From: Ureibacillus manganicus DSM 26584
GTDB lineage: Bacteria; Bacillota; Bacilli; Bacillales_A; Planococcaceae
Reading direction: 5' to 3'
NCBI RefSeq assembly: GCF_000772945.1
Contig: NZ_JPVN01000003.1
Location: 1 to 64,000 of the forward strand
Length of the DNA stretch: 64,000 nt
The translations under genes and the position numbers were made by a program. Shown here one piece after another: positions 1 through 60,863 of the stretch; within the stretch, counting starts at the first letter, position 1; every line of letters starts with the position of its first letter. The notes beneath the pieces were generated by a model, which made no database searches, was not told the origin of the DNA, and saw nothing but the letters and a program-made list of their open reading frames with translations.

Positions 1-1085
1 ATAGAGGCGTTCTACGGTACAAATGTGGATAAAAATTCGAAGGAAATGTTTCATAGATGCGTTCTACGGTACAAATGTGGATAAAAATTCGAAGGAAATG
101 TCTCATAGAAGGGCTCTACGGTACAAATTCAGTTAAATATTCGAAAGAAATGTCTCATAGAAGGGCTCTACGGAACAAATCCAGTTAAAAATTCGAAAGA
201 AATGTCTCATAGAAGGGTTCTACGGAACAAATCCAGATAAAAATTCGAAAGAAATGTCTCATAGGAGGGTTCTACGGAACAAATCCAGTTAAAAATTCGA
301 AAGAAATGTCTCATAGGAGGGCTCTACGGTACAAATTCAGTTAAAAATTCGAAAGAAATGTCTCATAGAAGGGTTCTACGGAACAAATCCAGTTAAAAAT
401 TCGAAAGAAATGTCTCATAGAGGCGTTCTACGGTACAAATGTGGATAAAAATTCGAAGGAAATGTTTCATAGATGCGTTCTACGGTACAAATGTGGATAA
501 AAATTCGAAGGAAATGTCTCATAGAAGGGCTCTACGGTACAAATTCAGTTAAATATTCGAAAGAAATGTCTCATAGAAGGGCTCTACGGTACAAATTCAG
601 TTAAATATTCGAAAGAAATGTCTCATAGAAGGGCTCTACGGAACAAATCCAGTTAAAAATTCGAAAGAAATGTCTCATAGAAGGGTTCTACGGAACAAAT
701 CCAGATAAAAATTCGAAAGAAATGTCTCATAGGAGGGTTCTACGGAACAAATCCAGTTAAAAATTCGAAAGAAATGTCTCATAGGAGGGCTCTACGGTAC
801 AAATTCAGTTAAAAATTCGAAAGAAATGTCTCATAGAAGGGTTCTACGGAACAAATCCAGTTAAAAATTCGAAAGAAATGTCTCATAGAAGGGTTCTACG
901 GAACAAATCCAGATAAAAATTCGAAAGAAATGTCTCATAGGAGGGTTCTACGGAACAAATCCAGATAAAAATTCGAAAGAAATGTCTCATAGGAGGGTTC
1001 TACGGAACAAATCCAAAGAAATTTCAAAAGAACTGTCACATAGATTCGCTCCACAGGACAAATCAAGATAATCTTTCGAATGCTG
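1..1085. repeat. 52-bp tandem repeat array A
   Basis: TTCTACGG recurs at exact 52-bp steps from position 10 to 998 (19 periods, 20 unit starts), and a decayed 21st unit follows in phase near 1050. Each unit holds a small hairpin of the TAGAA-ggg-TTCTA type, followed by an A-rich spacer containing ATTCGAAAG. Units fall into a few variants (spacer GTGGAT, TTCAGTT, CCAGTT, CCAGAT). The order of the first eight units is repeated by the next nine, with one unit doubled. There is no sensible reading frame, because 52 is not a multiple of three and stops occur in all frames. The array may continue left of the window. Confidence 0.97.
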
Positions 1086-1256
1086 CCCTTTAATAGCTGC
1101 TCTATAGCACAATAAATACGAAATACTTAATAACCCCTGTAAAAAGCAAAGATAAATCCATTCTTAATAGTAAAATATGGTTCACTTAAGATTAAGTTAA
1201 GACTCCAATTGTAGTATAGAGATATAAATAAGCAAACACATAAAGGAGTCGTTACG

Positions 1257-1976
1257 ATGAGTGCGGTTATAGAGATAAAAAATATCAAAAAAAGCTACGG
1301 AAATGTGAAGGCAGTCGATGACATTTCATTACAAGTAAAGCGTGGAGAGGTGCTTGGAATAATTGGGGCAAATGGCGCGGGTAAATCGACTACATTAGAA
1401 ATCATGATGGGTCTACGTAAACCAGATGAAGGGACCGTTACAGTACTAGGCATGGATATCGCAAAAGAATCGGAGCAAATCAAACAAAAAATTGGCATTC
1501 AGCTCCAGCAAACAGCACTTTATGATCGTATTAAAGTAAAAGAAGCACTAGAGTTATTTAGTTCTTATTATGAGAAAAAGAGAGACATAAATGAAATTAT
1601 TGAAGTACTGGGGCTAAGACCGTATCTTAACAAATTCGTGAAAAATCTATCAGGCGGTTGGCAACAACGTACATCTCTTGCACTTGCATTAATCAATGAT
1701 CCAGACATTATTTTCTTAGACGAACCAACAACAGGATTAGATCCCCAAGCAAGACTTGAACTTTGGGGTTGCATAAATCGCTATCGAAAAGAAGGAAAAA
1801 CAATTATTCTTTCCACTCATTATATGGATGAAGCTCAAAAGCATTGCGATCGCATTGCGATCATTAAAAAAGGAAAACTTATTTCTGTTGATGAGCCAAA
1901 GCGTTTAATTAGTACTTTAGAAAATGACGGTGCGACGTTAGAAGACGTTTATTTACAATATGCGGTAGGAAACTAA
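1257..1976 (+). CDS. ABC exporter ATP-binding protein (ABC-2 type)
   Basis: This is a single nucleotide-binding domain of 239 residues. Walker A GANGAGKS lies at 37-44, the signature LSGGWQQR at 132-139, Walker B LDEPTTGLD at 155-163 and the switch histidine near 189 in STHYMDEA. The fold and length fit DrrA/NatA-like ATPases that drive small-molecule export with a separate permease. It has no membrane segment, so it should sit on the cytoplasmic side of the permease encoded 15 bp downstream. The start has an AAAGGAG site eight bases upstream. The W in the signature is a little unusual. The substrate cannot be read from sequence. Confidence 0.93.
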   Translation: MSAVIEIKNIKKSYGNVKAVDDISLQVKRGEVLGIIGANGAGKSTTLEIMMGLRKPDEGTVTVLGMDIAKESEQIKQKIGIQLQQTALYDRIKVKEALELFSSYYEKKRDINEIIEVLGLRPYLNKFVKNLSGGWQQRTSLALALINDPDIIFLDEPTTGLDPQARLELWGCINRYRKEGKTIILSTHYMDEAQKHCDRIAIIKKGKLISVDEPKRLISTLENDGATLEDVYLQYAVGN

Positions 1977-1991
1977 AGGAGGAAAACTATA

Positions 1992-2735
1992 ATGCAATCA
2001 ATTTTAACTCATACAAAAATGGAAATGAAATTATTCTTTAGAGAAACCCTTGCTTTATTATTTACATTTATCGTACCTGCTGTAAGTTTTGTCGTGTTTG
2101 CAATTATGTTTAAGGGAACTTCGTATAAAGGAGGATTAGATTATTTCCAGGCTTATATCCCGAGCATGATTGCCATTATTATTTTCACAACAGCTTTTTT
2201 CTCGATGGGACTTCAAGTTGTCATTGATAGGGAGAAGGGAGTATACAAACGACTGAAAGGTACTCCACTTAATCAACGCGCAATTTTTACTGCAACGATT
2301 ATTAAAGGTTTCTTTGCGATTTATATAGGTGCAATTGAGATTCTCCTTATTGCAAAATTCGGTTTTTCAACAGATTTAACAGGCCATGCTTTACAGTTTT
2401 TCCTGGCGTTAACTTTTTGTTCCGTTACATTCTTTTCAATTGGATTTATCGTATCGAGTTTGGCTAAAAGAATGAATACTGCTTTAGGGATTGCATTAAT
2501 TGCTATGTATCCTATGATGTTTCTATCAGGAGCAACTATTCCAATTGAGGCATTTCCGGAAATTTTACAAAACGTATCACATATCGTTCCTTTGACATAT
2601 GTTGTTAATGTTTTAAGAGATGGCTGGAACGGTACATTATTTACTACTGATGCATTAGTCGATATAGCAATATTGGTAGGAATATTAATCATTTCCACAA
2701 TCATAAGCATGAGATACTTTAAGTGGACGGATTAA
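1992..2735 (+). CDS. ABC-2 type transporter permease
   Basis: This 247-residue protein has about six hydrophobic segments, and residues 12-35 form the first. The stretch around VIDREKGVYKRLKGTPL is the cytoplasmic coupling region typical of ABC-2 permeases of drug and lantibiotic exporters. It follows its ATPase by 15 bp with its own AAAGGAGG site, so the two genes form an operon and probably a homodimeric permease with two ATPase copies. A strong hairpin terminator follows at once. The partner and membrane location are clear; the exported compound is not. Confidence 0.92.
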   Translation: MQSILTHTKMEMKLFFRETLALLFTFIVPAVSFVVFAIMFKGTSYKGGLDYFQAYIPSMIAIIIFTTAFFSMGLQVVIDREKGVYKRLKGTPLNQRAIFTATIIKGFFAIYIGAIEILLIAKFGFSTDLTGHALQFFLALTFCSVTFFSIGFIVSSLAKRMNTALGIALIAMYPMMFLSGATIPIEAFPEILQNVSHIVPLTYVVNVLRDGWNGTLFTTDALVDIAILVGILIISTIISMRYFKWTD

Positions 2736-2756
2736 TACCCTAGTAAAAAGTAAATA

Positions 2757-2798
2757 AAAAAAGTGATCAGCACTGTTACTTGGCTTGATCACTTTTAA
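2757..2798. terminator. bidirectional terminator
   Basis: AAAAGTGATCA and TGATCACTTTT form an 11-bp stem with A and T runs on the outer sides. It lies between the convergent permease and lipoprotein genes and can serve both. Confidence 0.85.
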
Positions 2799-2804
2799 AT
2801 TTAT

Positions 2805-4521: not shown

Positions 4522-4537
4522 AATTAAAATAGAAAGC

Positions 4538-14357: not shown

Positions 14358-14511
14358 GTCTATTAAGTCCTTGAAAGTGTCTATTAATTATAATGAATTG
14401 TCTATTATTGGGACAAAGTTGTCTATTATCAGGACACCTGTCTATTATACGCACGAAAGTGTCTATTATCTCTAACTGAATTGTCTATTATCCGGATATA
14501 AATGTCTATTA
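14358..14511. repeat. 21-bp-spaced GTCTATTA array
   Basis: GTCTATTA occurs eight times, at 14358, 14379, 14400, 14421, 14440, 14461, 14483 and 14504. Steps are 21, 21, 21, 19, 21, 22 and 21 bp. The spacers between cores are unrelated to each other. It lies between the uvsE terminator and the next gene, both on the plus strand. Confidence 0.93.
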
Positions 14512-21126: not shown

Positions 21127-21170
21127 ATTTGGCTCGTAGCTTACGGATTTGCTGCTTTAAGTATAAAATT

Positions 21171-21241
21171 TGTTCTATACAACATAGAACAGAGTTGTTA
21201 TAATGTATCTAGAACAGATTTGTTCTAATTCCAATAGAACA
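21171..21241 (+). promoter_or_regulatory. promoter with TGTTCTA/TAGAACA operators
   Basis: TGTTCTAT-N5-ATAGAACA at 21171-21191 and TAGAACA-N4-TGTTCTA at 21210-21227 are palindromes of one motif. A third half-site TAGAACA lies at 21235-21241. A promoter TATACA-17-TATAAT (-10 at 21199-21204) is embedded, so the first operator covers the -35 and the second lies just after the -10. This is a repressor-type layout for the ABC operon that starts at 21313. Confidence 0.72.
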
Positions 21242-21312
21242 GTTTTATTGAAATACAAATCAATCATCACAAGAAGTTGTTTAATTTAATAAATAATATG
21301 GAGTGAGAACGT

Positions 21313-25759: not shown

Positions 25760-25921
25760 TGTCGAATGCTCAAGAGAAAGGAATGTTTGTAGGCGAAATT
25801 AATAGTTTCGTGTAACAATAGGTAGAATTTCATAGATAGGAAATAGGAACTTTTAAATATAGTTTAATAGAAATTATAAGAGTATAGTTAAGATAGAATG
25901 AGAACGAAATAGGTTCCTCAT

Positions 25922-26000
25922 TTGAAAAAGGCAAATCTATCGAAAGGTAGAGACGCAAAGTCACAGATCTAAGGGAAACTAGGATGGCTGGTCTACCAAA
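25922..26000 (+). ncRNA. cyclic di-GMP-I (GEMM-I) riboswitch
   Basis: The conserved GEMM core is readable: AAAAAGGCAAATCTATCGAAAG, then AGACGCAAAG with a GNRA-type loop, GATCTAAGGGAAACTAGGAT as the second arm with its tetraloop receptor side, and ATGGCTGGTCTACC closing. It lies 80 nt before a secreted protein gene. Immediately downstream (about 26000-26052) GAAGAAT/ATTCTTC and CTCAAAA/TTTTGAG pair into a hairpin without a clear T run, so control could be through RNA stability or access to the ribosome site rather than simple termination. Confidence 0.85.
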
Positions 26001-26078
26001 TGAAGAATCAAGAATTTGCTCAAAATATAGAGAGTAAGTTTTGAGATTCTTCCAAATTATAAAATGGAGGGATTTTTT

Positions 26079-27314
26079 ATGAATAGTAAATTCAACAAAA
26101 ATGTACGCAACGTTCTAGCAACAGGTTTCTTAATGGCAACATTTACATTCGGTACTGGACAAGCTTTTGCAAACGAGGATCCAACAAAAACCGATGCTGA
26201 TGCTATAGAAGAAAATGTAATTGAAACTACTGAAACTACTGAAGCTGAAACAACTGAAACAGAGGCTACTGTCGAAAATCAAACAAATGAGGGCGAAGAA
26301 ACTACTACACAAGAACAAACTGAGGAAGAAACAACTGATACTGAAAATGTAGAAGAAAGTACAACTCAAGAGCCCATTTCTATAATTGATTTCTTTAAAA
26401 AAGTACTGAATAATATTCAAGTTGCTATAGAAAACAATGATGCAATCGAGGCCATTGTATTAGCAAAAGATGCACAAGCTAAAATAGATGATGCAGAGGC
26501 TCTACTTAAAGCTGGCAATGAAGAAGAAGCTAGCAAATTACTCGAAGAGGCAATTGCACAACAAGAATTAGCGCTACAAAAATATGAAGATGCAACTTCA
26601 AATTTAGAAGATGATGCGAATGAAGAAGTTACTACCGAAGAAGAAGTTGAAGAAGAAACGACAAATGAATCGGAAGTAACTGGTGAAGTTGAAGAAAAAG
26701 TAACAGCTGAGTCAGTTCGTGCTGTACTAGAAGCAAAATTCTCATCTAACCTAAATGCACTTCAAGCTGCCCTAGATAAAGTTGGAAACCCTAAGGCAAA
26801 AGCTGCTTTAGCTAAAAACGTTGAAAAAGCAAAAGCACGTCTTGAAAAGAAAGTGAATAAAGAACTAGCAAAACTTGAGGCAAAAGGTTTATTCACTACT
26901 GAAGAAAAAGAAGAAGTTAAGAACGAACAAGATGTAACAACTGAGGAAACTGCTAAAGATAAAGAATCTGAGCCATTGGTGATAGTAACAGATGCTCCTA
27001 AAGCTGAACAAGAGGTAACTAGTGAAACGAAAACAGATAAAGTCGAAACAACAAAAGTAGTAGAAAAAGAAAAGGCAAAAGCTATTACAGAAACTAAAAC
27101 ACAACAAGAGGATCATTCTAAAAAAGAAGAAAAACAACTTGAAAAGGCTGAAAGAGAAGCTGCAAAGCAACAAGAAAAGGCTGAAAGAGAAGCAGTAAAG
27201 CAGCAAGAAAAGGCTGAACGTGAAGCTGTAAAACAACAAGAAAAAGCAGAGAAGTCAAAAGAAAAAGGCAATAATGGAAACGGCAATAACGGAAACGGAA
27301 ACAATAAAGAATAA
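26079..27314 (+). CDS. secreted DUF5667-like coiled-coil protein under c-di-GMP riboswitch
   Basis: The 411-residue exported protein has a Sec signal peptide (about 1-32, cut near QAFA-NE). A Thr/Glu-rich linker comes next. Two helical segments (about 95-170 and 205-275) have DUF5667-like KLLEEAIAQQELALQKYEDA and AKNVEKAKARLEKK patterns. The Lys/Glu-rich tail repeats EKAEREAVKQQ four times and ends NGNGNNGNGNN. It has no membrane anchor or LPXTG, so it is probably released or bound to the wall by charge. ATG 26079 has GGAGGG seven bases upstream. The riboswitch suggests a matrix or surface role tied to the sessile state. Confidence 0.85.
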   Translation: MNSKFNKNVRNVLATGFLMATFTFGTGQAFANEDPTKTDADAIEENVIETTETTEAETTETEATVENQTNEGEETTTQEQTEEETTDTENVEESTTQEPISIIDFFKKVLNNIQVAIENNDAIEAIVLAKDAQAKIDDAEALLKAGNEEEASKLLEEAIAQQELALQKYEDATSNLEDDANEEVTTEEEVEEETTNESEVTGEVEEKVTAESVRAVLEAKFSSNLNALQAALDKVGNPKAKAALAKNVEKAKARLEKKVNKELAKLEAKGLFTTEEKEEVKNEQDVTTEETAKDKESEPLVIVTDAPKAEQEVTSETKTDKVETTKVVEKEKAKAITETKTQQEDHSKKEEKQLEKAEREAAKQQEKAEREAVKQQEKAEREAVKQQEKAEKSKEKGNNGNGNNGNGNNKE

Positions 27315-31983: not shown

Positions 31984-33120
31984 GTGAGCATCGAACAACT
32001 ACAACTAGATTTAATTGATTATGCAAAATCGATTGGCGTCGATAAAATCGGGTTTACTTCCGCATCGCCGTTCAATGAATTAAAGAACCGTCTAAAGCGG
32101 CAACAAGAACTTGGCTACCAATCTGGATTTGAAGAATCAGACATAGACAAGCGTACAGAGCCTATTAAATTACTAGATGGAGCTGAAAGTATCATCGCGA
32201 TTGCACTTGCATATCCATCCAAAATGGAAGATGCCCCTACTGGTAAAAAGGGAGCAAGACGTGGAATCTTTGCACGGGCTTCCTGGGGGATTGACTATCA
32301 TGTTGCCCTTCGTGAACGATTGAAGTTATTGGAAGAATGGTTAGTAGAGCGCGTTCCAGGAGTTAAGTTTAAATCGATGGTTGATACAGGAGAACTTGTT
32401 GACCGAGCAGTTGCGGAGCGTGCGGGAATCGGTTGGAGTGGTAAGAATTGTTCTATAATTACTCCTGAATTTGGCTCGTATGTTTATTTGGGTGAAATGA
32501 TTACTAACATTCCTTTTGCCCAAGACTCTCCAATAGAAAATGAATGTGGTGATTGCCGACTATGTTTAGACGTTTGTCCGACAGGTGCGCTAGTTGAGGC
32601 TGGACAATTAAATGCTAAGAGTTGTGTAGCATTTTTAACTCAAACAAAAGACTTTTTACCAGATGAATTCCGTGGGAAAATCGGCAATCGTGTGTATGGT
32701 TGTGATACTTGTCAAACGGTATGTCCGAAAAATAAAGGGAAGATCAACTGGATACATGATGAGTTTAAACCTGATCCAGAAATTGCAAAGCCTTTATTGC
32801 AACCGTTACTGCATATGTCAAATAAAGAATTTAAATCGAAATTTGGACACGTTTCAGGGAGTTGGCGAGGGAAAAAGCCAATTCAGCGTAACGCAATAAT
32901 AGCTTTGGCACATTTTAAAGAGGAAGCTGCGGTACCTGATTTAATTAATATAATGAAAAAAGATGAGCGTCCTGTCATGAGAGGTACAGCTGCATGGGCT
33001 ATCGGGAAAATTGGTGGGCCTTTAGCTGAAGATGCTCTTGTTGGTGCGAAAGACGTGGAGAAAGATGAGGAAGTTCTTAAAGAGATTGAGAAAGGGCTCA
33101 TGTTAGTTATGGAACGATAA
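31984..33120 (+). CDS. queG: epoxyqueuosine reductase
   Basis: QueG reduces epoxyqueuosine to queuosine at wobble position 34 of tRNAs with GUN anticodons, using cobalamin and two 4Fe-4S clusters. The 378 residues include ECGDCRLCLDVCPTGAL and CDTCQTVCPKNKGK for the clusters, DTGELVDRAVAERAGIGW for the active site, and a C-terminal HEAT-like repeat region (about 310-375) seen in the Bacillus form. GTG 31984 (MSIEQL) is chosen over the longer frame from 31918, because AAAGGAG lies 12 bases upstream and family proteins start here. trmL follows after a repeat array. Confidence 0.93.
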   Translation: MSIEQLQLDLIDYAKSIGVDKIGFTSASPFNELKNRLKRQQELGYQSGFEESDIDKRTEPIKLLDGAESIIAIALAYPSKMEDAPTGKKGARRGIFARASWGIDYHVALRERLKLLEEWLVERVPGVKFKSMVDTGELVDRAVAERAGIGWSGKNCSIITPEFGSYVYLGEMITNIPFAQDSPIENECGDCRLCLDVCPTGALVEAGQLNAKSCVAFLTQTKDFLPDEFRGKIGNRVYGCDTCQTVCPKNKGKINWIHDEFKPDPEIAKPLLQPLLHMSNKEFKSKFGHVSGSWRGKKPIQRNAIIALAHFKEEAAVPDLINIMKKDERPVMRGTAAWAIGKIGGPLAEDALVGAKDVEKDEEVLKEIEKGLMLVMER

Positions 33121-33196
33121 ACGTTATATTTCTCTTTAAGAGTACTAGATAAGATTGTTTATTAAGGGAGCTTTTAATTTTGGGGACGAAATAAAA

Positions 33197-33448
33197 CCGA
33201 AGTTACGTGCTGTTTTCCCGAAGTATTTCGCATTAATTCCGAAGTATTTCGTGATAATCCCGAAGTTTCAGTTTTCAGTGAAGTAATCCCGAAGTTACGT
33301 GCTATTTTCCCGAAGTAATTCGCATTAATTCCGAAATATTTTGTGTTAATCCCGAAGTTTCAGTTTTCAGTGAAGTAATCCCGAAGTTACGAGCTGTTTT
33401 CCCGAAGTAATTCGCATTAATTTCGAAGTATCGTGATAATCCCGAACT
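33197..33448. repeat. 21/29-bp CCGAAGT array
   Basis: CCGAAGT or a close variant begins at 33197, 33218, 33239, 33260, 33289, 33310, 33331, 33352, 33381, 33402, 33423 and 33442. Steps are 21, 21, 21, 29, 21, 21, 21, 29, 21, 21 and 19. The long step carries a half-copy, GTGAAGT, 18 bp in. The super-unit is 92 bp. It lies between queG and trmL. Confidence 0.95.
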
Positions 33449-33551
33449 TTTCAGTTTTCAGTGAAGTAATTAAGAATTCTCTCATTTATTCAGTAACATA
33501 TCGCCTTTATTCTATAAAGAAACAAGTTTAACTATTAAGGAAGTGTCGATT

Positions 33552-34025
33552 TTGCCATTGCATATTGTTTTATATCAACCAGAAATTCCAGCAAACACAG
33601 GTAATATAGCAAGAACTTGTGCTGGAACAAATACATCATTACATTTAATCCGCCCACTTGGATTTTCAACAGATGATAAAATGCTAAAACGTGCTGGGCT
33701 CGATTATTGGGAACATGTCAATGTGGTTTACCATGATTCATTAGAAGATTTTCTTGAATACTCAAAAGATGGCGATCTCTATTTAATCGAAACATATAGT
33801 GATGATCCATATACAACCCACGATTTCAGTGATCAAAACCAGGATATATACTTTATGTTCGGAAAAGAAACAACTGGGTTACCAAAGGACTTTGCGTACG
33901 AACGTCGGGATAAATGCTTAAGGATACCACAAAGTGAACATGTACGATCATTAAATTTATCGAATACGGCAGCAATCGTAATTTATGAAGCTTTACGACA
34001 ACAAAATTATCCGGGGTTAAAATAA
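33552..34025 (+). CDS. trmL: tRNA (cytidine(34)-2'-O)-methyltransferase
   Basis: TrmL is a SPOUT-fold methyltransferase that puts a 2'-O-methyl group on the wobble base of leucine tRNAs. The 157 residues closely follow the Bacillus protein: LHIVLYQPEIPANTGNIART, HLIRPLGFSTDDKMLKRAGLDYW, the cofactor knot FGKETTGLP, and RSLNLSNTAAIVIYEALRQQ. The start is taken as TTG 33552, ten bases after AAGGA, giving the family N-terminus PLHIVLYQ; GTG 33543 sits too close to the site. It is probably transcribed alone or with queG. A hairpin terminator follows at 34038-34076. Confidence 0.94.
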   Translation: MPLHIVLYQPEIPANTGNIARTCAGTNTSLHLIRPLGFSTDDKMLKRAGLDYWEHVNVVYHDSLEDFLEYSKDGDLYLIETYSDDPYTTHDFSDQNQDIYFMFGKETTGLPKDFAYERRDKCLRIPQSEHVRSLNLSNTAAIVIYEALRQQNYPGLK

Positions 34026-34037
34026 TTAATAATAATA

Positions 34038-34078
34038 GGGTGAGTCTGAAAGAGTAATTCAGGCGCATCCTTTTTATA
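34038..34078 (+). terminator. trmL terminator
   Basis: GGGTGAGTCTGAA pairs with TTCAGGCGCATCC (with wobble pairs), followed by TTTTTAT. Confidence 0.65.
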
Positions 34079-34099
34079 TGTTGTTAAGGGGATTCTCTT

Positions 34100-34370
34100 A
34101 GACAAAAATAAGAGGGAAATTAAAAAACTGTTCTCGATAGGCGTTCTCGCGGACAAAAAAGTGAAGAAACCGAGAAACCTGTCCTCGACAGGCGATCTCG
34201 AGGACAAAAAAGTGAAGAAACCGAGAAAGCTGTCCTCGACAAACTGTATCGAGGACAAAAAAGTGAAGAAACCGAGAAACCTGTCCTCGACAGGCGTTCT
34301 CAAGGACAAAAAAATGAAGAAAATGAAAAACCTGTCCTCGATAAGTCGTTTCGAGAGCAAAAAGGGAGTG
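34100..34370. repeat. 51-bp hairpin repeat array
   Basis: GGACAAAAAA recurs at 34100, 34151, 34202, 34253 and 34304, exactly 51 bp apart. Each unit carries GTCCTCGA and TCGAGGAC around a 9-nt loop (perfect in two units, decayed in the outer ones), followed by an A/G-rich spacer. Since 51 is a multiple of three, open frames arise on both strands, but none has a ribosome site. It sits between trmL and catE, which are convergent. Confidence 0.93.
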
Positions 34371-34387
34371 CTCAGGTCCAATATGTA

Positions 34388-34427
34388 AAAAAGGTGACGT
34401 CAAAAAATTGACGCCACCTTTACTATT
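34388..34427. terminator. bidirectional terminator
   Basis: AAAGGTG-GTCAA and TTGAC-CACCTTT pair, flanked by A and T runs, between array and catE. Confidence 0.85.
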
Positions 34428-34431
34428 TAAA

Positions 34432-35316: not shown

Positions 35317-35365
35317 GGCTTTTTAGCCCCCTTGTAAAAATATTAAATCCATTCACTTACTTTAT

Positions 35366-35388
35366 GTAACTAAGTATATTTTAGTTAC
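35366..35388 (-). promoter_or_regulatory. MarR/DUF24-type operator upstream of catE
   Basis: A perfect inverted repeat GTAACTA-N9-TAGTTAC lies 50 bp upstream of the catE start. In B. subtilis, catDE is repressed by the thiol-sensing MarR/DUF24 proteins YodB and CatR at such palindromes; the assignment to a specific regulator is inference. Confidence 0.6.
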
Positions 35389-35473
35389 TTCAAGAAGTCA
35401 AGGATATAAATTTAATATTGATTTTGTAGGTTTTTATAGTGGTTTTCTTAAATCTATTCCGTAAAAAATAAAA

Positions 35474-35503
35474 GAACAACCATATAAAATATGGTTGCCC
35501 TTT
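35474..35503 (-). terminator. terminator of small membrane peptide gene
   Basis: ACCATAT and ATATGGT (extended by flanking pairs) fold around AAA. On the minus strand TTTTATTTTTT follows. Confidence 0.8.
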
Positions 35504-35555
35504 TATTTGTAGATATGCGCCAAAACGATTATGTATGGCATTTGGACTTTAAAGA

Positions 35556-35648
35556 TTAGTCTTCTTTATTGTAGTTACCTTCATGACCTGCAGTTAAGAT
35601 TGCAGTTAAAATAGAAAGACAAATCATAATCATTAAAAAAGTATTCAT
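35556..35648 (-). CDS. 30-residue small membrane peptide
   Basis: ATG 35648 has a perfect AGGAGG eight bases upstream and opens a frame for MNTFLMIMICLSILTAILTA, then GHEGNYNKED and a stop. Residues 3-20 form one hydrophobic helix, with a short polar, acidic tail, so it should be an integral membrane peptide. A clean terminator follows 53 bp after the stop, so the gene is a complete transcription unit. Similar small hydrophobic proteins in Bacillus act as regulators of transporters or sporulation. I cannot assign a family. Confidence 0.72.
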   Translation of the reverse strand: MNTFLMIMICLSILTAILTAGHEGNYNKED

Positions 35649-35784
35649 GGAAGAATCCTCCTCATGTAAATAGACTATCACTATTAGTATAGACTAAATA
35701 AAATTTCTTTACTACACAAAATTTATGACGGATTTGGTTCGATTCATGGAAGTTGGGAATATTACTTTTGAGAGGAGTGATCAG

Positions 35785-35973
35785 ATGGAAAACGAAAAAA
35801 TGGAACCTAGTGGGCACATGACAAACAATATGGCAGATGTCATTTGGCTCGGAAAACAAATGGAAAGAATGCGTGAAGGTTCACAACTAGCTGAAGATAT
35901 GCGATTTCCAGATCCAATTCAATTTGATGCAGTAGATAATGATAATGATGAAAAGTATAACAAAAATAACTAA
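35785..35973 (+). CDS. small hypothetical protein
   Basis: The protein has 62 residues, starting at ATG 35785 with GAGAGGAG upstream (a longer frame from 35725 lacks a site). It is Met- and acid-rich: MENEKMEPSGHMTNNMADVI, then WLGKQMERMREGSQ and an Asp/Asn-rich tail. No membrane helix or known domain is visible. It is divergent from the small membrane peptide gene and ends at a bidirectional terminator. Function unknown. Confidence 0.65.
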   Translation: MENEKMEPSGHMTNNMADVIWLGKQMERMREGSQLAEDMRFPDPIQFDAVDNDNDEKYNKNN

Positions 35974-35981
35974 CCTAAAAT

Positions 35982-36018
35982 TGGCCTCACTCGATTTTCA
36001 TTTACGAGTAAGGCCAAT
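35982..36018. terminator. bidirectional terminator
   Basis: TTGGCCT-ACTCG and CGAGT-AGGCCAA pair between convergent genes. Confidence 0.88.
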
Positions 36019-36022
36019 CTAT

Positions 36023-37636
36023 TTAAGCGTTTACTTGATAACCTTTAAGTTCCTCACGTAATTTTGCTTTTAAGAATTTACCAACTGATGTTTTCGGAAT
36101 CTCATTTAAAAACACAATATCATCTGGTAACCACCACTTAGCAAACTGACCTTCAAGGGAAGCTAATAATTCTTCCTTTGTTACATTTTTGCCCTCTTTT
36201 AAAACAACACATGCAAGTGGTCGCTCTAACCATTTTTCATGTGGAATTGCGATAACTGCAGCTTCAAGAACTGCTTCGTGTGTCATTAGTGCATTTTCTA
36301 AATCAACAGAAGAAATCCATTCGCCACCACTTTTAATTAAATCTTTCGTACGATCTGTAATTTTAATGTAGCCTTCAGGTGTTACGACAGCTATATCGCC
36401 AGTATATAACCAACCATCACGGAACGCTTCAGTAGTACGCTCATCTTTGTAATACTCATGAGCAATCCAAGGACCGCGAATACGAAGCTCACCCATTGTT
36501 TTGCCGTCCCAAGGAACTTCGCCTTCATCATTCACCACTTCTGTATCAAGTAGGGAAACAGTTAGACCCTGTGTTGCGCGGATATTTAATTTATCTTCAC
36601 GGGACCAATCTTCCATCGCAGAAGTATAGGTTGATAAGCTTACAATTGGAGTTGTTTCCGTCATTCCATAGCCGACGATAAATGGCACACCAAACTTATC
36701 TTCGAAGGTTTGAATTAATCCTTTTGGTGATGCAGAACCGCCACATACAAGAGCTCTTAACGATGATAAGTCACGAGGATTTTTTTCTTGTTCCACAGCA
36801 ACACCCATCCAGATGGTTGGAACTCCTGCAGTTAACGTAACTTTCTCTTGTTCTATTAAATCTAGTAGTAACGGAGGATTAAACATCGGTCCAGGTAAAA
36901 CTTGCGTTAATCCAAAATTGACCGCTGCAAATGGCATTCCCCAAGCATTTACGTGGAACATTGGGACAATTGGCATGATGACGTCAGTTTCACGTAGACC
37001 CAGACTATCTGCTAAACCAAGTGCCATACTATGAAGAACTAATCCTCTATGTGTATATACAACTCCCTTAGGCATACCTGTTGTTGCACTTGTATAGCAC
37101 ATTCCTGCTGGAGAATTTTCATCTAGATCAAGAGGGAACTCAAACTCATCTGAAGCTTCTTCCAATAATTTTTCATAGGAATACACATTTGGGAAACTAG
37201 ATTCTGGAACTTCTTTATTATCTTGCATAACGATAATGTGTTTTACCGTTTTCAAAAATGGAATCGCTTTCTCAAATAAAGGGAATAAATCTCCATCAAT
37301 TAATAAAATCTCATCTTCCGCATGATTAATGACATAAATAATATGCTCTGGACTTAAGCGAATATTAACCATATGCAATATCGCTCCAGCACATGGTACA
37401 GCAAAATATGCTTCAAGATGACGGTGGTGATTCCAAGCAAATGATGCAACTTTCGTCCCGCGTTTCATACCTAACTTTGTTAATGCATCTGCAAGTTTTC
37501 TTGTACGTTTTACATAATCTTTGTAAGGAATTCTGTGAATTGTTTCAGGGCTTGTACGTGAAATAATCATTTTTTCTGGGAAGTATCTCTCTGCACGCTT
37601 CAAAAAACTGGTTAACAATAACGGCGTATCCATCAT
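36023..37636 (-). CDS. acyl-CoA ligase (long/medium-chain fatty acid type)
   Basis: This 537-residue ANL-superfamily ligase activates a carboxylic acid to its CoA thioester through an acyl-AMP. Motifs are YTSATTGMPKGVVYTHRG (AMP loop), YGMTETTP, YTGDIAVVTPEGYIKITDR and the C-terminal lysine in KTSVGKFLK. The pattern resembles the AlkK/LcfB type. The start is taken at ATG 37636, nine bases after GGGGGA; a longer frame reaches 37678. It is divergent from an aldo-keto reductase, with a 65-bp inverted repeat between. The chain length of the substrate cannot be told. Confidence 0.92.
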   Translation of the reverse strand: MMDTPLLLTSFLKRAERYFPEKMIISRTSPETIHRIPYKDYVKRTRKLADALTKLGMKRGTKVASFAWNHHRHLEAYFAVPCAGAILHMVNIRLSPEHIIYVINHAEDEILLIDGDLFPLFEKAIPFLKTVKHIIVMQDNKEVPESSFPNVYSYEKLLEEASDEFEFPLDLDENSPAGMCYTSATTGMPKGVVYTHRGLVLHSMALGLADSLGLRETDVIMPIVPMFHVNAWGMPFAAVNFGLTQVLPGPMFNPPLLLDLIEQEKVTLTAGVPTIWMGVAVEQEKNPRDLSSLRALVCGGSASPKGLIQTFEDKFGVPFIVGYGMTETTPIVSLSTYTSAMEDWSREDKLNIRATQGLTVSLLDTEVVNDEGEVPWDGKTMGELRIRGPWIAHEYYKDERTTEAFRDGWLYTGDIAVVTPEGYIKITDRTKDLIKSGGEWISSVDLENALMTHEAVLEAAVIAIPHEKWLERPLACVVLKEGKNVTKEELLASLEGQFAKWWLPDDIVFLNEIPKTSVGKFLKAKLREELKGYQVNA

Positions 37637-38057
37637 AACGAACCATCCCCCTAAAATAAGATGAATTGTCAGTATCATGACAATTTAACTACTTACTTGT
37701 ATATATTGAAGAAGTAGTTTAAATAGAACAAAATTGATAAGGAAAATAAAAAAATGAGGGATGTTTAATATTTTAAAAATAATACAATCACTGACAAATA
37801 AAATAAATCTGATTCTAAGAAGATAGTTTATTGAAATCGCAGAAATTGGGGATACGACATATGTAGAATTATGTGCAAATAGTTTAAACTTGCACATATA
37901 TTTAGATATGTCGTATGTTGAAAAGTTACAAAATCAATTTCTTCAATATTTATTGCTAGGTTAATTTAATAGTTTTAAAACAGTGATAAATAGCAAAAAA
38001 TTTTGATAAGTAGATTTAAATCGTATAATGAATTTAGTTTAGAAAAGGAGTGATTGC
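37637..38057. promoter_or_regulatory. divergent intergenic region with two inverted repeats
   Basis: This 421-bp gap contains AACTACTT/AAGTAGTT at about 37686-37724 near the ligase start. It also contains a long symmetric structure at 37852-37916: ATACGACATAT/ATATGTCGTAT (11 bp), an 8 x 8 internal loop, and ATGTGCAA/TTGCACAT (8 bp) around a GTTTAAAC-containing loop. It may be an operator pair or a transcribed hairpin. No gene is visible, and the rest is A+T rich. Confidence 0.7.
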
Positions 38058-38888
38058 ATGAACAAAATCCCAATGAAGACATTAGAAAATGGCGTGAAAA
38101 TGCCTTACTTAGGTTTAGGAGTCTATAAAATGACTGACCATGAAGAAGCAATACACGCTATGACAAAGGCACTAGAAGTTGGTTATCGTGCAATAGATAC
38201 TGCTGCGCTATATGGAAATGAAGAAGAAGTTGGTGAAGTCATTCGTGCATCGAGTATTCCTCGAGAAGAAATTTATATAACAACAAAAGTATGGAATTCA
38301 GATCAAGGCTATGACAACACATTAAGAGCGTTTGAAATTTCTCTTAAAAAACTAGGACTAGAGTATATTGATTTATATTTAACTCACTGGCCAGTGAAAG
38401 AAAAATTTGTGGAGACCTATCGTGCAATTGAAAGGCTATATGAAGAAAAGCTAATTCGAGTGCCAGGTGTCTCGAATCATCATCAGCATCACTTAGAAAA
38501 AATCTTTGTGAAAGCTAATGTAAAACCAATGGTGAACCAAATAGAGCTACATCCGTATCTGAGTCAAAAGCCTTTACTAAATTTCTGTCAAGATCAAACT
38601 ATAGCAGTAACAGCATGGGGACCACTTGGTAGAGGGAAGATAATAGAAGATACAACAATTGAACAATTATCTGCGAAATATAATAAAACCGCTGCACAAA
38701 TTATTTTACGTTGGCATTATCAAAATGATGTCATTACCATTCCAAAATCAGTGACACCAAGTCGTATCGAAGAAAATATGAACGTATTTGACTTTGAATT
38801 GACTCAGGAAGATATGCTAGCGATGGAAGGACTAAACAAAGATTTCAGAACTGGTCAGGATCCCGATCATTTTCAATTTGATTTCTAA
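38058..38888 (+). CDS. aldo/keto reductase
   Basis: The 276-residue NADPH-dependent (alpha/beta)8 barrel is close to the YvgN/YtbE glyoxal reductases. The catalytic tetrad is in DTAALYGNEEEVG (Asp, Tyr), TTKVWN (Lys) and LTHWP (His); the cofactor end has IPKSVTPSRIEEN. It reduces aldehydes or ketones in the cytosol, probably for detoxification. AAAGGAG precedes ATG 38058. It is single, followed by the second 52-bp array. Confidence 0.93.
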   Translation: MNKIPMKTLENGVKMPYLGLGVYKMTDHEEAIHAMTKALEVGYRAIDTAALYGNEEEVGEVIRASSIPREEIYITTKVWNSDQGYDNTLRAFEISLKKLGLEYIDLYLTHWPVKEKFVETYRAIERLYEEKLIRVPGVSNHHQHHLEKIFVKANVKPMVNQIELHPYLSQKPLLNFCQDQTIAVTAWGPLGRGKIIEDTTIEQLSAKYNKTAAQIILRWHYQNDVITIPKSVTPSRIEENMNVFDFELTQEDMLAMEGLNKDFRTGQDPDHFQFDF

Positions 38889-38942
38889 ATTTCCAAAGTG
38901 GTTAGTGGACTCAGTGCCTTAGTGAATTCGAAATTGATGTAA

Positions 38943-39580
38943 AAGGTAACAGAGAAGCGCTCTCAGTGCCCAAACGATTATGAACTTAATGAGAAAGGTA
39001 ACAGAGAAGCGCTCTCAATGCCCCAACGAGCATGAAAATAATGAGAAAGGTAACAGAGAGGCGCTCTCAATGCCCCAACGAGCATGAAAATAATGAGAAA
39101 GGTAATAGAGATACTCTCTCAGTGCCCAAACGATTATAAACTTAATGAGAAAGGTAACAGAGAGACGCTCTTAGTGCCCCAAGGCAATAAGAAATATAGC
39201 GAAAGGTCACATAGAAAGGCTCTATGTGCCCCAAGGCAATAAAAAATATAGCAAAAGGTAACATAGAGAGGTCCTATGTGCCCCAAGGCAATAAAAAATA
39301 AAGCAAAAGGTAACATAGAGAGGCTCTATGTGCCCCAAGGCAATAAGAAATAAAGCGAAATGTAACATAGAGAGGTCCTATGTGACCAAAGGCAATAAAA
39401 AATAAAGCAAAAGGTAACATAGAAAGGCTCTATGTGCCCCAAGGCAATAAGAAATATAGCGAAAGGTCACATAGAAAGGCTCTATGTGCCCCAAGGCAAT
39501 AAGAAATAAAGCAAAAGGTAACATAGAGAGGCTGTATTTGCCCTAAGACAATTAAAAATAAAGTAACGGGAACATTGGAG
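38943..39580. repeat. 52-bp tandem repeat array E
   Basis: AAGG phase marks fall at 38943, 38995, 39047, 39099, 39151, 39203, 39255, 39307, 39359, 39411, 39463 and 39515: twelve units at exactly 52 bp. The left five units have AGAG-aagcg-CTCT hairpins, and the right seven have CATAGAAAGGCTCTATG-type hairpins, in some extended to ACATAGAG/CTCTATGT. A decayed unit ends near 39580. It lies between the convergent aldo-keto reductase and RluA genes. Confidence 0.96.
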
Positions 39581-39646
39581 CTTTTATGTACCTACATTCC
39601 ATTTTTAATAAAACTACTCAACTCTACAGTAAAACAAAGAGCATAT

Positions 39647-40495
39647 TTAGTGAATTGCTCTTTGATCTTTCACAGTAAACACCTTATTTAAAAACGGATG
39701 TTCAAACTCCAATTGAATAGCATGCAGTTCATAATCGTCCTTAGCTGTTTTTCGTGCATTATACATCGTATCACCAACGATTGGGTGTCCTAAATGGGCC
39801 ATGTGTACACGAATTTGGTGTGTGCGGCCAGTTTCTAAAACTAAGTGAACAATCGATGTGTATTTTAGTCTTTTAACAACTTCATAATGGGTAATTGCAT
39901 GTTGCCCAGTTTTAGAAACGACACGACGTGTTGCATGATGTCTATCTTTTCCTATGGGTTCATTAATTGTCCCATGGTCTTGACGAACTATGCCTTGTAC
40001 TTCTGCTTCATAGGTACGAATAATCGATTTTTCCTCAATCATTCGATCAAAAATTGACTTCGCAATGGGATGCTTTGCCACAAGTAACAAACCTTTTGTT
40101 CCACGATCTAAACGATGAACATGCTCAGCATAATCTCCACCATTCGCTTTTATATGGGCCAACACATGATTCATACATGTATCACGATCCCAAATATCAT
40201 TTGGGTGTGTCGCCATCCCTTTAGGTTTAGATACAATAATGCAATGTTCATCTTCATATTGGATAGGGACTTCACATTTAGCTGTTGGTACATAACTTGA
40301 ACTTGGAACTTCGAAAACAAACTTTAATAAAGTGCCTTCTTTTAATTTATCGTTCCATAAAACTGGCGTATCATCCTCGTACATAACTGCCTTTGCCATT
40401 CTTAGTTCATGAACTAACTTTTTCCCGAGTCTCCACTTCGTTCGTAGTAATTCCTCAACTGTTAAACCATCTTGTACTACTTCATATTGAAACAT
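39647..40495 (-). CDS. RluA-family RNA pseudouridine synthase
   Basis: The 282-residue enzyme converts uridines to pseudouridine in rRNA or tRNA. The catalytic loop is HVHRLDRGTKGLLLVAK (Asp), and the family motif RTHQIRVHMAHLGHPIVGD follows. An N-terminal S4-like region (about 1-70) precedes it. The closest Bacillus types are YhcT/YjbO; the target base is not predictable. AAGGAGG precedes ATG 40495. The 5' side holds a set of GGA-loop hairpins (40552-40716), which could be in its leader. Confidence 0.92.
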   Translation of the reverse strand: MFQYEVVQDGLTVEELLRTKWRLGKKLVHELRMAKAVMYEDDTPVLWNDKLKEGTLLKFVFEVPSSSYVPTAKCEVPIQYEDEHCIIVSKPKGMATHPNDIWDRDTCMNHVLAHIKANGGDYAEHVHRLDRGTKGLLLVAKHPIAKSIFDRMIEEKSIIRTYEAEVQGIVRQDHGTINEPIGKDRHHATRRVVSKTGQHAITHYEVVKRLKYTSIVHLVLETGRTHQIRVHMAHLGHPIVGDTMYNARKTAKDDYELHAIQLEFEHPFLNKVFTVKDQRAIH

Positions 40496-40551
40496 AGTTA
40501 TCCTCCTTAGATAGACACAGTTCGATCAATTAATGATCAAAGCCTAAGAGC

Positions 40552-40716
40552 GCCACTTCCTGTGGCAACGGCTTCGAGCCAAACAGCAGCCAAAAAGGCG
40601 ACTTGTCGTTGAGAACGCTATTTATCCCCGAAAACGCCACGTCCTGTGGCATCGGTGACATGACCAACATCCTGTTGGCCTCTGTGGCGTTGACTGCATG
40701 ACCGACATCCTGTCGG
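40552..40716 (-). repeat. four GGA-loop hairpins
   Basis: Read on the minus strand, four 15-nt hairpins are CCGAC-AGGAT-GTCGG (40716-40702), CCAAC-AGGAT-GTTGG (40678-40664), GCCAC-AGGAC-GTGGC (40650-40636) and GCCAC-AGGAA-GTGGC (40566-40552). The loop AGGAN is constant while the arms change in a paired way. The segment is more G+C rich than its surroundings and looks like a dispersed repeat. It is downstream of the thioredoxin-gene terminator and upstream of the pseudouridine synthase gene. Confidence 0.88.
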
Positions 40717-55401: not shown

Positions 55402-55409
55402 GATGAAGG

Positions 55410-55441: not shown

Positions 55442-55467
55442 TTGATTGATAGTGTGGTGCGAAATAT

Positions 55468-55638
55468 ACAAAATGATCGATACTGCCATAAAGGAGAGCG
55501 ATAATGTCACAAAGTGAATCGATACGGTCACAAAGTAGGTCGATATATACAAAGTGATCGATACTGCCACAAAGTAGGTCGATTAAGATACAAAGTGGAT
55601 CTATACTGCCACAAAGTAGAGCGATTAAGTCACAAAGT
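55468..55638. repeat. 21-bp-spaced ACAAAGT array
   Basis: ACAAAGT or variants begin at 55468, 55488, 55509, 55530, 55549, 55569, 55590, 55611 and 55632, steps 20, 21, 21, 19, 20, 21, 21 and 21. Flanks repeat GATCGATACTGCC and GTCGATTAAG in part. It lies between yheA and hemZ. Confidence 0.93.
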
Positions 55639-55770
55639 AGACCGATTTAAAAATCGAATGATGAACTATCCATTTGGGAAGTATTTCTTTCATCATTTGT
55701 CGCGAGACATGGTAAAATAGAAAAAGTGATTTTTGATCGACATGATCATTTGAAGAAAGAGAGTTAATAT

Positions 55771-57288: not shown

Positions 57289-57292
57289 CAAT

Positions 57293-57337
57293 AAGGGTGA
57301 TTCAAAGTCTAAGCCTTTGGATCACCCTTTATTTTTA
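57293..57337. terminator. bidirectional terminator
   Basis: AAGGGTGAT-CAAAG and CTTTG-ATCACCCTT pair between convergent genes. Confidence 0.9.
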
Positions 57338-57342
57338 TATGA

Positions 57343-57960: not shown

Positions 57961-58137
57961 GTTTTAACCCCTTTTCACTTAAAAATTACTACAAGATTAA
58001 TATACTTTTTTATCATCAATATATGACAATAAATTCGAAGCTAATTCATACTATTTATTATTCTGGTATGAACTATCTGAACCTATTAATCTATGCTAAA
58101 CTAAGAATAATTATCCAAAGAAAGTGCTGGTGGTCAC

Positions 58138-58926: not shown

Positions 58927-58939
58927 TTTAAGTAGAAAA

Positions 58940-58983
58940 AACGTTGGAATGGTATGAAATTATTCATTATCATTCCAACGATA
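58940..58983. terminator. hairpin overlapping the DHFR-like gene end
   Basis: CGTTGGAATG-TATGAA and TTCATT-CATTCCAACG pair. The right arm lies inside the last codons of the convergent gene. Confidence 0.8.
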
Positions 58984-59517: not shown

Positions 59518-59577
59518 TTACTTCCACCTCTTTTTAGGAACGTTCGTTCTCTATATTGTACCAAAGGTTAAAAAAAA

Positions 59578-59606
59578 TGGCGAATTCGAAATAACCGAAT
59601 CGCCAC
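59578..59606 (-). terminator. terminator of yteA
   Basis: TGGCGA-TTCG and CGAA-TCGCCA form a stem just past the yteA stop, between yteA and the start of the DHFR-like gene. Confidence 0.75.
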
Positions 59607-59611
59607 TTAAT

Positions 59612-60298
59612 TTATTCCTCTAAATAATCGTATTTTCTTGCATGGTCAACTTCCCGTTGAGAAAGTTGTTGTGTTAACTGATCAATTTCTGAAATATGGA
59701 AGGAACTGAGTTCGTCGTTTCTTGCCACTTCTTCAGGGTCATCATATAAATCCTCATATTCTTCAAAGTCCCCTTCGAAATCTGAAGGAGTCTCGGATGT
59801 CCCATATTTTGCAACAACTTGAAACGTATCCTCATAATCATGGATGTCATCTTTATCATCTCTACCTGAAAATGAATTATCAACAGGTGGTAAAATCACT
59901 TGTTCTTCAACAGGGCGATCTGTTGGAATGTTTTTTGCATCCGTATGTTCAATACAAAAAGCAGTATAGGGAAGTGCTTCTAGACGTTCATATGGAATAT
60001 CTTGATGACAAACTTCACAAACTCCATATGTACCGCTATCCATTTTTTCTAATGCAGCATTAACTTTTGCTAGTTCATCTTCATCGTGAACTTTTAACGC
60101 CATATCTTTTTCACGTTCATATAACTCAGTTCCTAAATCAGCTGGATGATTATCAACGGTAGACAATTCATCAATTGAGTCACGAAGACTCCCGCGTTCT
60201 AAATATTCCTGGTCATCAGCCAAATCTTCCTTAGATAGAGATTTCTTTTGATCGAGTAACATCATTTTTAAGTTCGATAACTGATTTTCATTTAACAA
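59612..60298 (-). CDS. yteA: YteA-family TraR/DksA zinc-finger protein
   Basis: The 228-residue protein has a TraR/DksA-like fold. Long helices (about 5-80) precede the finger CEVCHQDIPYERLEALPYTAFCIEH, which has three cysteines plus a histidine. An acidic C-terminal half (about 135-228) is rich in Asp and Glu. YteA-type proteins in Bacillus are expressed in sporulation; a role at RNA polymerase is possible but not shown. A strong AAGGACGTGATG context precedes the start. It is flanked by an array on its 5' side. Confidence 0.87.
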   Translation of the reverse strand: MLNENQLSNLKMMLLDQKKSLSKEDLADDQEYLERGSLRDSIDELSTVDNHPADLGTELYEREKDMALKVHDEDELAKVNAALEKMDSGTYGVCEVCHQDIPYERLEALPYTAFCIEHTDAKNIPTDRPVEEQVILPPVDNSFSGRDDKDDIHDYEDTFQVVAKYGTSETPSDFEGDFEEYEDLYDDPEEVARNDELSSFHISEIDQLTQQLSQREVDHARKYDYLEE

Positions 60299-60453
60299 AG
60301 CATCACGTCCTTTCTAACAAACATAGTATGGACGGAAAAAGGGAAGTTATTAGAAGGAGAATTTTAAAAATTACCGAGGAAAGTCGCTTAACCTATAGGG
60401 AAATTTGTTCAGTAGTTTGAGCAAGTGCTGAGGTTGCCCATAAGTGGCGAAAA

Positions 60454-60863
60454 GTCGCTCATAAAACAGTAGAAGTCGCTCAATTGGCACCAAAAGTCGC
60501 TCAATTCCATCCGATAGTCGCTCATAAATTGGAGTGGATGCTGGAGTCGCTCATAAGAGGCGAAAAGTCGCTCATAAAACAGTAATAGTCGCTCAAATCG
60601 CACCAAAAGTCGCTCAATTCCATCCGAAAGTCGCTCATAAATTGGAGTGGATGCTGGAGTCGCTCATAAGAGGCAAAAAGTCGCTCATAAAACAGTAGAA
60701 GTCGCTCAAATCGCACCAAAAGTCGCTCAATTCCATCCGAAAGTCGCTCATAAAATGGATTGGATGCTGGAGTCGCTCATAAAACAGTAGAAGTCGCTCA
60801 ATTCGCACCTAAAGTCGCTCAATTCCATCCAAAAATCGCTCAAATCACTCCCGAAATCGCTCA
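60454..60863. repeat. 21/29-bp GTCGCTCA array
   Basis: GTCGCTCA or a close variant begins at 60454, 60475, 60496, 60517, 60546, 60567, 60588, 60609, 60630, 60659, 60680, 60701, 60722, 60743, 60772, 60793, 60814, 60835 and 60856. Steps are 21 with a 29 before 60546, 60659 and 60772. The super-unit of four 21s and one 29 is 113 bp. The last copy touches the IS element. Confidence 0.97.

Follow-up and report, generated by a model that had tools for sequence, protein, structure and literature searches.

Introduction

The only unit lengths reported for non-coding tandem repeats of Bacillus are 20-21 and 51-53 nt; a genome holds several families, and a role of nucleoid proteins or of small RNAs has been suggested (PMC8161180, Subirana and Messeguer). 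These repeats were described as species-specific, their sequences being without conservation (PMC8161180). Why some bacteria should retain satellite DNA of just two unit lengths is a question that has stood since the first description. Here, we analyzed seven intergenic repeat arrays, Arrays 1 to 7, in a 64,000-nucleotide stretch of Ureibacillus manganicus DSM 26584 (contig NZ_JPVN01000003.1, positions 1 to 64,000), hereafter the window. Tandem Repeats Finder recovered all seven where an earlier, sequence-only reading had placed them (Table 1).

The window arrays resemble the repeats of PMC8161180 in that the unit length is constant within an array, the sequence is non-coding and at least four repeats occur within 800 nt; indeed, all seven lie between called genes and have at least four units. 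Further likenesses are short signals that often occur with their reverse in one unit and a patchy distribution across species. The kind was published in PMC8161180 as 20-21 and 52 nt bacterial tandem repeats, so the window arrays are a further example of a known, unexplained kind, and the statement of the sequence-only reading that no named family fits is not supported. Recurrence in the same gaps, a preference for convergent gaps, the combination of 21- and 29-bp steps and strand polarity go beyond the text of PMC8161180, in which 'leading strand', 'convergent' and 'palindrom' have no occurrence.

Sequence samples

The U. manganicus genome (G000) comprises 4.05 Mb in 81 contigs and is 99.99% complete. 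It was sampled as 40 stretches of 20 kb, five of which were picked for holding arrays of the GTCGCTCA family. Same-genus material consisted of 60 stretches from three complete genomes and the syntenic regions of 20 genomes. Further samples were 80 trmL loci from named Bacillales and others, as well as 20 stretches that surround dyad arrays, taken from three genomes (G057, G160 and G374) of two families other than that of U. manganicus. Among the 80 trmL loci listed, from which records of U. manganicus itself were possibly excluded, the nearest TrmL was that of Lysinibacillus telephonicus (94%), which puts the genome in a group resembling Lysinibacillus/Ureibacillus. Genes were called by a simple hexamer method of our own, and gap types are therefore approximate.

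Unit lengths

The periods of 88 intergenic arrays of at least three copies fell at 19-22 bp (n = 29), 40-43 bp (n = 9), 50-53 bp (n = 27) or multiples or sums with 29 bp (n = 16). Thus, the two length classes of 51-52 and 21 bp that the sequence-only reading had described in the window extend over the sampled genome and its relatives, with 81 of the 88 arrays conforming; the remaining seven had periods of 11 (four arrays), 15, 25 and 38 bp. The 35 U. manganicus stretches chosen blind to arrays (700 kb) held 18 arrays.

Spacing was also evaluated from the recurrence of exact 8-mers in the first 464 kb of the U. manganicus sample, consisting of the window and 20 stretches that included the five picked for GTCGCTCA arrays. 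Intergenic recurrence peaked at 52 (914), 21 (264) and 42 bp (173) and at sums with 29 bp (50, 71, 92 and 113), while other distances mostly had single-digit counts. Coding sequence of the same genomes had no such peaks. The 29-bp skips noted earlier are real: successive intervals in Array 7 run 21, 21, 21, 29, 21, 21, 21, 21, 29 and onward, and in the GTCGCTCA family 70 of 102 intervals in the U. manganicus sample were 21 bp and nine were 29 bp. Pairs of GTCGCTCA occur on six contigs, and several families of equal unit length coexist in the genome.

Array recurrence in the same gaps

Gene order around trmL is kept across the genus. The queG-trmL gap, which holds Array 3 in the window, contains an array in 9 of 21 genomes, with units of 21 bp (window), 51 bp (L152), 21 bp (L154), 52 and 21 bp (L155), 21/42 bp (L156, L161), 52 bp (L158, L159) and 20 bp (L160). 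The convergent gap 3' of trmL, which holds Array 4, contains one in 8 of 21 genomes, with units of 51 bp (window), 21 bp (L007), 21/42 bp (L158, L159), 52 bp (L164), 51 bp (L165, L166) and 52 bp (L168). In both gaps, the unit sequences are unrelated save for two related pairs. At 15 loci outside the genus, no array occurred in the queG-trmL gap and one occurred in the post-trmL gap (L004, 20 bp). These data answer a check proposed in the sequence-only reading: orthologous gaps keep an array while its core, and even its length class, changes.

With related pairs collapsed, the two trmL gaps held 14 of 20 independent arrays of the syntenic block, as compared with 3.7 expected under a length-weighted null; none of 20000 simulations reached 14. 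The post-trmL gap alone is weaker evidence, as some gap reaches seven arrays in 3.7% of simulations. At L152, the neighbouring proteins are approximately 90% identical to those of the window, yet the queG-trmL gap holds the other array class. Copy number also differs fast: one and the same unit is present in 2.7 copies in L158 and 10.6 in L159. A case across families lies between the farnesyl-diphosphate-synthase gene and dxs, where G057 carries a 52-bp array and U. manganicus a 19-bp one. The address of an array would seem to weigh more than its sequence, and no simple account explains recurrence in the same gap with class switching.

A further candidate, the gap that G005 appeared to share beside the IS256 transposase gene of the window, was discarded since a transposase gene is a mobile flank. 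In G005, a gene 80% identical to this transposase gene (L188, 7781-8947) is flanked by two stretches of one 52-bp array, as if the element had landed within the array. Separately, repeats of 89-115 bp in 1.8-1.9 copies lie near trmL in several relatives (L004 1108-1297, L009 293-499, L019 1050-1237 and L047 1158-1328) and resemble duplicated tRNA genes.

Motifs common to other genera and families

Paired ATGAAGACC at a free spacing of 37-67 bp was found in 8 of 398 genomes of the class: 158 matches in U. manganicus, 34 in G160, 14 in G057, 12 in G374 and one in each of four others. Reversed ATGAAGACC had no match in any of the four main genomes; elsewhere, the maximum was nine (G414). The 25-bp GGTC dyad, GTCNTCAT-N7-ATGANGAC, had 113 copies in U. 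manganicus, 26 in G057, 71 in G160 and 79 in G374, and is thus many-copy in three families. It is present as a single copy in 55 other genomes, in what appears to be one conserved coding stretch; its reversed control was absent except for one match in G196. The spacing of the dyad was exactly 52 bp in 157 of 168 intervals (31 arrays). Isolated dyads (≤3 mismatches) were absent from the intergenic gaps of 864 kb, the five found all lying outside called gaps.

Paired TCAT-N7-ATGA dyads occurred in each of the three distant genomes and in 15 of the 25 examined from the same genus, with no reversed match in any of the 28. Among the 25, 13 genomes had at least eight pairs and 12 had one or none. 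Arrays 1 and 4 match a second frame, TGTC-N19-GACA, which occurs in 7 of the 27 published repeats (PMC8161180, Table 1; ≤1 mismatch) versus 0.28 in shuffled repeats; the longer TCAT dyad is also present in two of the seven. In the same published table, GTCNTCAT-N7-ATGANGAC is found with 0 mismatches in repeats of B. horikoshii and sp. m3-13, and a form one base longer in those of B. coagulans and B. litoralis. Thus, unlike the species-specificity stated in PMC8161180, its own repeats share dyads with the genomes analyzed here. A proposed kinship of Array 1 to a B. coagulans family through CATAGA-N5-TCTACG was not retained: one published repeat has it without mismatch, but a hit at the threshold used also came up in 73 of 200 shuffled sets.

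The Array 7 core, searched as three TCGCTCA at 16-36 bp, was found in 10 of 121 genomes of the family. Seven of these had at least seven matches; four of the seven belong to genus g19 and two to g26. Among the matches listed, spacing was 20-21 bp nearly throughout, and a 29-bp step was seen in U. manganicus only. On contig C1 of G456, all nine TCGCTCA matches among those listed are on the plus strand, which fits a strand rule. A second CCCGAAGT array, at L097, means that the core of Array 3 is not private to it.

The array motifs are partly common to other genera and families and are not species-private. Sharing with other genera was seen for Arrays 1, 4 and 7, with none shown for Arrays 2, 3, 5 and 6. 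The sequence-only reading was thus right that the unit cores of the arrays differ, but some of these cores are families common to other arrays, genera and families. Motif families that span bacterial families make the question of the 52-bp period approachable by bait and by gene-presence comparison.

Gap type and strand polarity

Gap types were counted for 44 arrays in four same-genus genomes. Of 22 arrays of the 52-bp class, 11 lay in convergent gaps, as compared with 105 of 965 non-array gaps (10.9%; P = 6e-6); for the 21-bp class, the count was 4 of 22. Two of 22 arrays in each class lay in divergent gaps, against a background of 23.6% (P = 0.13 each). The absence of arrays between divergent promoters, noted earlier, therefore stands for the window but not for these genomes, where 4 of 44 arrays lie in divergent gaps.

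The leading strand was assigned from the sign of the GC skew of each stretch. In this genus, A exceeded T on the leading strand in 23 of 25 arrays of the 52-bp class and 18 of 24 of the 21-bp class, versus 315 of 549 non-array gaps of at least 200 bp. The mean AT skew was 0.23 for 52-bp arrays and 0.02 for gaps, and an earlier, overlapping count of polarity in the genus gave 28 of 29. The A-rich strand follows the leading strand even where it is opposite to both flanking genes (L164, L165, L166 and L168, and three lagging-strand gaps of the 21-bp class). The GTCGCTCA core was co-oriented in five of six arrays. Leading-strand A-richness was found in 7 of 15 arrays of the distant genomes (0 of 3 in G057, 4 of 8 in G160 and 3 of 4 in G374). 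A universal polarity was thus rejected; it belongs to this genus and not to the array kind.

The arms of the dyads

In the search for the GGTC dyad, arm position 5 was left open and is therefore unbiased; the remaining arm positions belonged to the pattern (≤4 mismatches) and hence provide no evidence on pairing. In 176 of the 199 dyads, position 5 was A/T in both arms, as AA (41), AT (16), TA (81) and TT (38). These combinations match independence without pairing (P = 0.60, from copies that are related and not independent). By genome, position 5 was mostly mismatched in G005 (AA in 17 of 20 A/T cases) and G057 (TT in 11 of 14), and mostly paired in G160 and in U. manganicus (29 of 47). Position 5 speaks against a hairpin in this dyad. 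Mismatches on the A-rich strand were G-T in 74 cases versus A-C in 64, and thus have no bias of the kind RNA wobble pairing would leave. Folded as RNA, the 25-nt dyad had a median energy of only -6.8 kcal/mol. Over the arrays in general, 19 of 30 consensus units contained a dyad better than those of 95% of 60 shuffled versions. A selected RNA hairpin is accordingly rejected for the GGTC dyad only, on the lack of wobble asymmetry and the unpaired position 5, and not for the class as a whole, as the TGTC/GACA arms are complementary.

Among 108 cores of the GTCGCTCA family (1 mismatch allowed), core columns carried 1.1-2.0 bits, the next three columns were A/T with 0.8-1.0 bit, and the mid-spacer carried 0.0. 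Judged from these columns, A/T-degenerate edges beside a fixed core may reflect a protein that contacts the DNA as a duplex.

Interpretation

The reading that we favour, tentatively and at slightly less than even weight, is that the arrays are clusters of double-stranded DNA sites at which putative sequence-specific proteins dock. Each unit of the 52-bp class would hold a pair of inverted half-sites in the frame GGTCNTCAT-N7-ATGANGACC or TGTC-N19-GACA, with a step of 51-52 bp, approximately five helix turns. A unit of the 21-bp class would present a core of 7-9 bp with A/T-rich flanks at a step of 21 bp, approximately two turns, and now and then of 29 bp. Neighbouring bound proteins might multimerize into an extended complex in permissive gaps past gene ends, chiefly between convergent genes, and this complex could act as a chromosome-organizing or insulating site. 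This reading draws on the constant spacing and the two length classes, the conserved cores and their A/T-degenerate positions, the motifs common to several genera, the return of arrays to the same gaps with a switch of class and the convergent location favoured by the 52-bp class, together with the lack of pairing at position 5, the lack of a wobble bias and the absence of isolated GGTC dyads; binding, multimerization and the role of the complex are inferred.

A cognate gene beside the arrays was considered and rejected: none of 205 array-neighbour proteins compared between genomes was a recurrent, nameable DNA-binding protein, few having been identified by family search. Several results weigh against protein docking. 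No binding protein was identified in the analysis. The sequence-only reading had suggested that one face of the DNA could be presented to a protein, with the 29-bp skips breaking that phase; steps of 21 and 52 bp agree with the idea, but the recurring 29-bp interval, at 2.8 turns, does not keep helical phase and leaves a strict phase rule unsupported. The GGTC dyad, the commonest 52-bp family met elsewhere in the U. manganicus genome, is absent from the seven window arrays, and many 52-bp arrays match neither dyad frame (e.g. Array 5 and L058). Position 5 is paired in 26 of 40 A/T cases of G160. The inner TGTC/GACA arms change complementarily, as in a hairpin, with 62 paired positions versus 36 when shuffled (0 of 5000) over 17 arrays, of which four carry the TTCAT dyad of the other class, two loci are counted twice and some are related. 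Finally, 52-nt repeats are reported to be transcribed in B. coagulans (PMC8625621).

A wider proposal, which we consider doubtful, extends docking to all 52- and 21-bp satellites of Bacillota. These would form one class of docking arrays with few motifs conserved across families, read by conserved putative DNA-binding proteins. The arrays would repeatedly disappear from the same gaps and form there anew, the 21- and 52-bp forms being interchangeable and, in some lineages, oriented by replication; they would be a bacterial equivalent of fast-evolving satellite DNA, but one that keeps its address.

An unlikely but serious alternative is that the arrays are neutral or selfish minisatellites, arising by slippage and unequal exchange in permissive gaps, with length and polarity set by replication mechanics and not by selection. 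Copying can preserve a period, and the rapid change in copy number between L158 and L159, higher-order units such as that of 113 bp, and the low constraint on the gaps are all as expected of such repeats. The same applies to the replication-linked polarity in the genus and to patchy presence, as in the dyad pairs found in only some same-genus genomes. Against this, cores are fixed while spacers vary between arrays, the same cores and spacing occur in other genera and families, arrays with unrelated unit sequences still keep to 51-52 bp, and coding repeats lack the 21- and 52-bp peaks. Recurrence in the two trmL gaps far exceeds the length-weighted null, though a gap-specific mutational hot spot would give the same result.

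It is about as unlikely that the arrays act as RNA, with read-through transcripts forming series of hairpins, or small RNAs, that shield 3' ends, sequester proteins or pair with targets. The transcription of B. coagulans repeats favours this account, as do the dyads that exceed shuffles, the complementary change of the TGTC/GACA arms and the location of arrays mostly past gene ends, with the 52-bp class in convergent gaps. It fits poorly with the lack of G-T bias, the unpaired position 5 in many GGTC copies and the weak folding of that dyad. Moreover, the A-rich strand opposes both flanking genes at the loci listed above, and no hairpin was seen in the 21-bp class.

Bidirectional terminator arrays, in which a dyad and its flanking A/T runs stop transcription from both convergent genes, are improbable. 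They would account for the convergent preference, and some units consist of an A-run, a stem and a T-run (e.g. L105). However, the 7 nt past the GGTC dyad contain a mean of 3.07 T versus approximately 2.2, with five or more in just 16% of cases. Terminator-like sites in the window from 33000 to 40000 number 7, as compared with 4.2 (sd 2.4) in shuffled sequence, and strict 52-bp spacing is unnecessary for termination. Least probable are relics of mobile elements of the repetitive extragenic palindromic (REP) or recombination-site kind. Inverted arms of 9 bp that enclose 7 variable bases are reminiscent of tyrosine recombinase core sites, but U. manganicus and G013 had no transposase of the REP-associated kind, and the single array compared with plasmids and the single array compared with phages had no match.

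Comparison with other repeat systems

Iterons and clusters of DnaA boxes are direct repeats approximately two helix turns apart that seat an array of proteins. By comparison, arrays of the window type are dispersed over many gaps, have many cores per genome and lie without an adjacent replicon gene. In leading-strand polarity, they resemble the orienting sequences of SpoIIIE and FtsK. GAGAAGGG, the SpoIIIE recognition sequence (SRS) of B. subtilis, occurred 35 times on the leading and 6 times on the lagging strand in 2.06 Mb of stretches from U. manganicus, G005, G020 and G013. Identity with SRS or FtsK-orienting polar sequences (KOPS) was ruled out, as GAGAAGGG was present in 0 of 49 arrays (19.5 kb).

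The TAACTGA repeats of Beggiatoaceae are likewise short direct-repeat arrays between genes, patchy over taxa and with no known binder; they differ in their 7-bp unit and in lying directly upstream of start codons (PMC4679880). REP palindromes and their transposases (RAYT, REP-associated tyrosine transposases; see PMC3733652) are similar as many-copy extragenic palindromes, but lack the strict tandem arrangement of the 51-52 bp arrays. A REP/RAYT system was rejected: the Y1 transposase domain PF01797 had no match in the proteins of U. manganicus or G013, no search having been aimed at recombinases. A plasmid or phage origin was rejected on one array each, Array 7 having no match to plasmids and Array 5 none to phages, with the other five not compared. 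Clustered regularly interspaced short palindromic repeats (CRISPR) do not fit in unit structure, as the spacers are not unique: the whole unit repeats, with 84-93% matches in the 51-52 bp arrays.

Features of the window

Arrays 2-6 start 52-77 bp past a stop codon, in keeping with the earlier description of arrays as mostly just after stop codons; no gene lies to the left of Array 1 in the contig, and Array 7 departs from that description in lying near the 5' end of a gene. No common peptide was seen in the 51-bp units, though several frames are open.

Table 1. Arrays, flanking genes and other features of the window. TRF, Tandem Repeats Finder.
Feature	Coordinates	Strand	Units and cores	Placement and remarks
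Array 1	1..1085	+	52-bp units, ~20 copies; frame TGTC-N5-(9 nt)-N5-(A/G)ACA	Truncated by contig start; A-rich strand +; TRF 1-1044, 52 bp, 20.1 copies, 93% matches
Array 2	14358..14511	+	TGTCTATTA cores (n = 8), 19-22 bp apart; 5 of 7 intervals 21 bp	TRF 14398-14469, 21 bp
Array 3	33197..33470	+	CCCGAAGT cores, 21 bp with 29-bp skips; 92-bp higher-order unit	queG/trmL gap
Array 4	34100..34370	+	51-bp units: dyad TGTCCTCGA-(9 nt)-TCGAGGACA and A-rich linker	Between convergent trmL and glyoxalase-family gene; TRF 34124-34363, 51 bp, 4.7 copies
Array 5	38941..39563	+	52-bp units, 12 copies; dyad CATAGAG/CTCTATG	Between convergent genes for an aldo/keto reductase and an RluA-family pseudouridine synthase
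Array 6	55460..55646	+	ACAAAGT cores ~21 bp apart (19-21)	YlbF/YmcA-family gene/hemZ gap; TRF period 21/42
Array 7	60439..60868	+	AGTCGCTCA cores (n = 19, ≤1 mismatch), 21 bp with 29-bp skips; 113-bp higher-order unit	140 bp from 5' end of minus-strand gene 59612-60298; 224 bp from 3' end of IS256 transposase gene
queG	31984..33120	+		TIGR00276; left flank of recurrent array gap
trmL	33552..34025	+		TIGR00185; separates the two recurrent array gaps
IS256-family transposase gene	61093..62253			Adjoins Array 7
Tandem repeat	21168..21260		25-bp unit, 3.7 copies	Intergenic; outside both length classes
Coding repeat	27141..27244		33-bp unit (11-residue repeat, charged)	Within coding region
c-di-GMP-I-GGC riboswitch aptamer	25921..26001			RF03167; upstream of gene at 26064 or 26079
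Bacillaceae-1 small RNA matches, tandem	40528..40599 and 40616..40678			RF01690; 43.9 and 36.5 bits; overlap a mechanical minus-strand open reading frame

Three Rfam matches in the window exceeded the gathering score, and all three lie outside the arrays.

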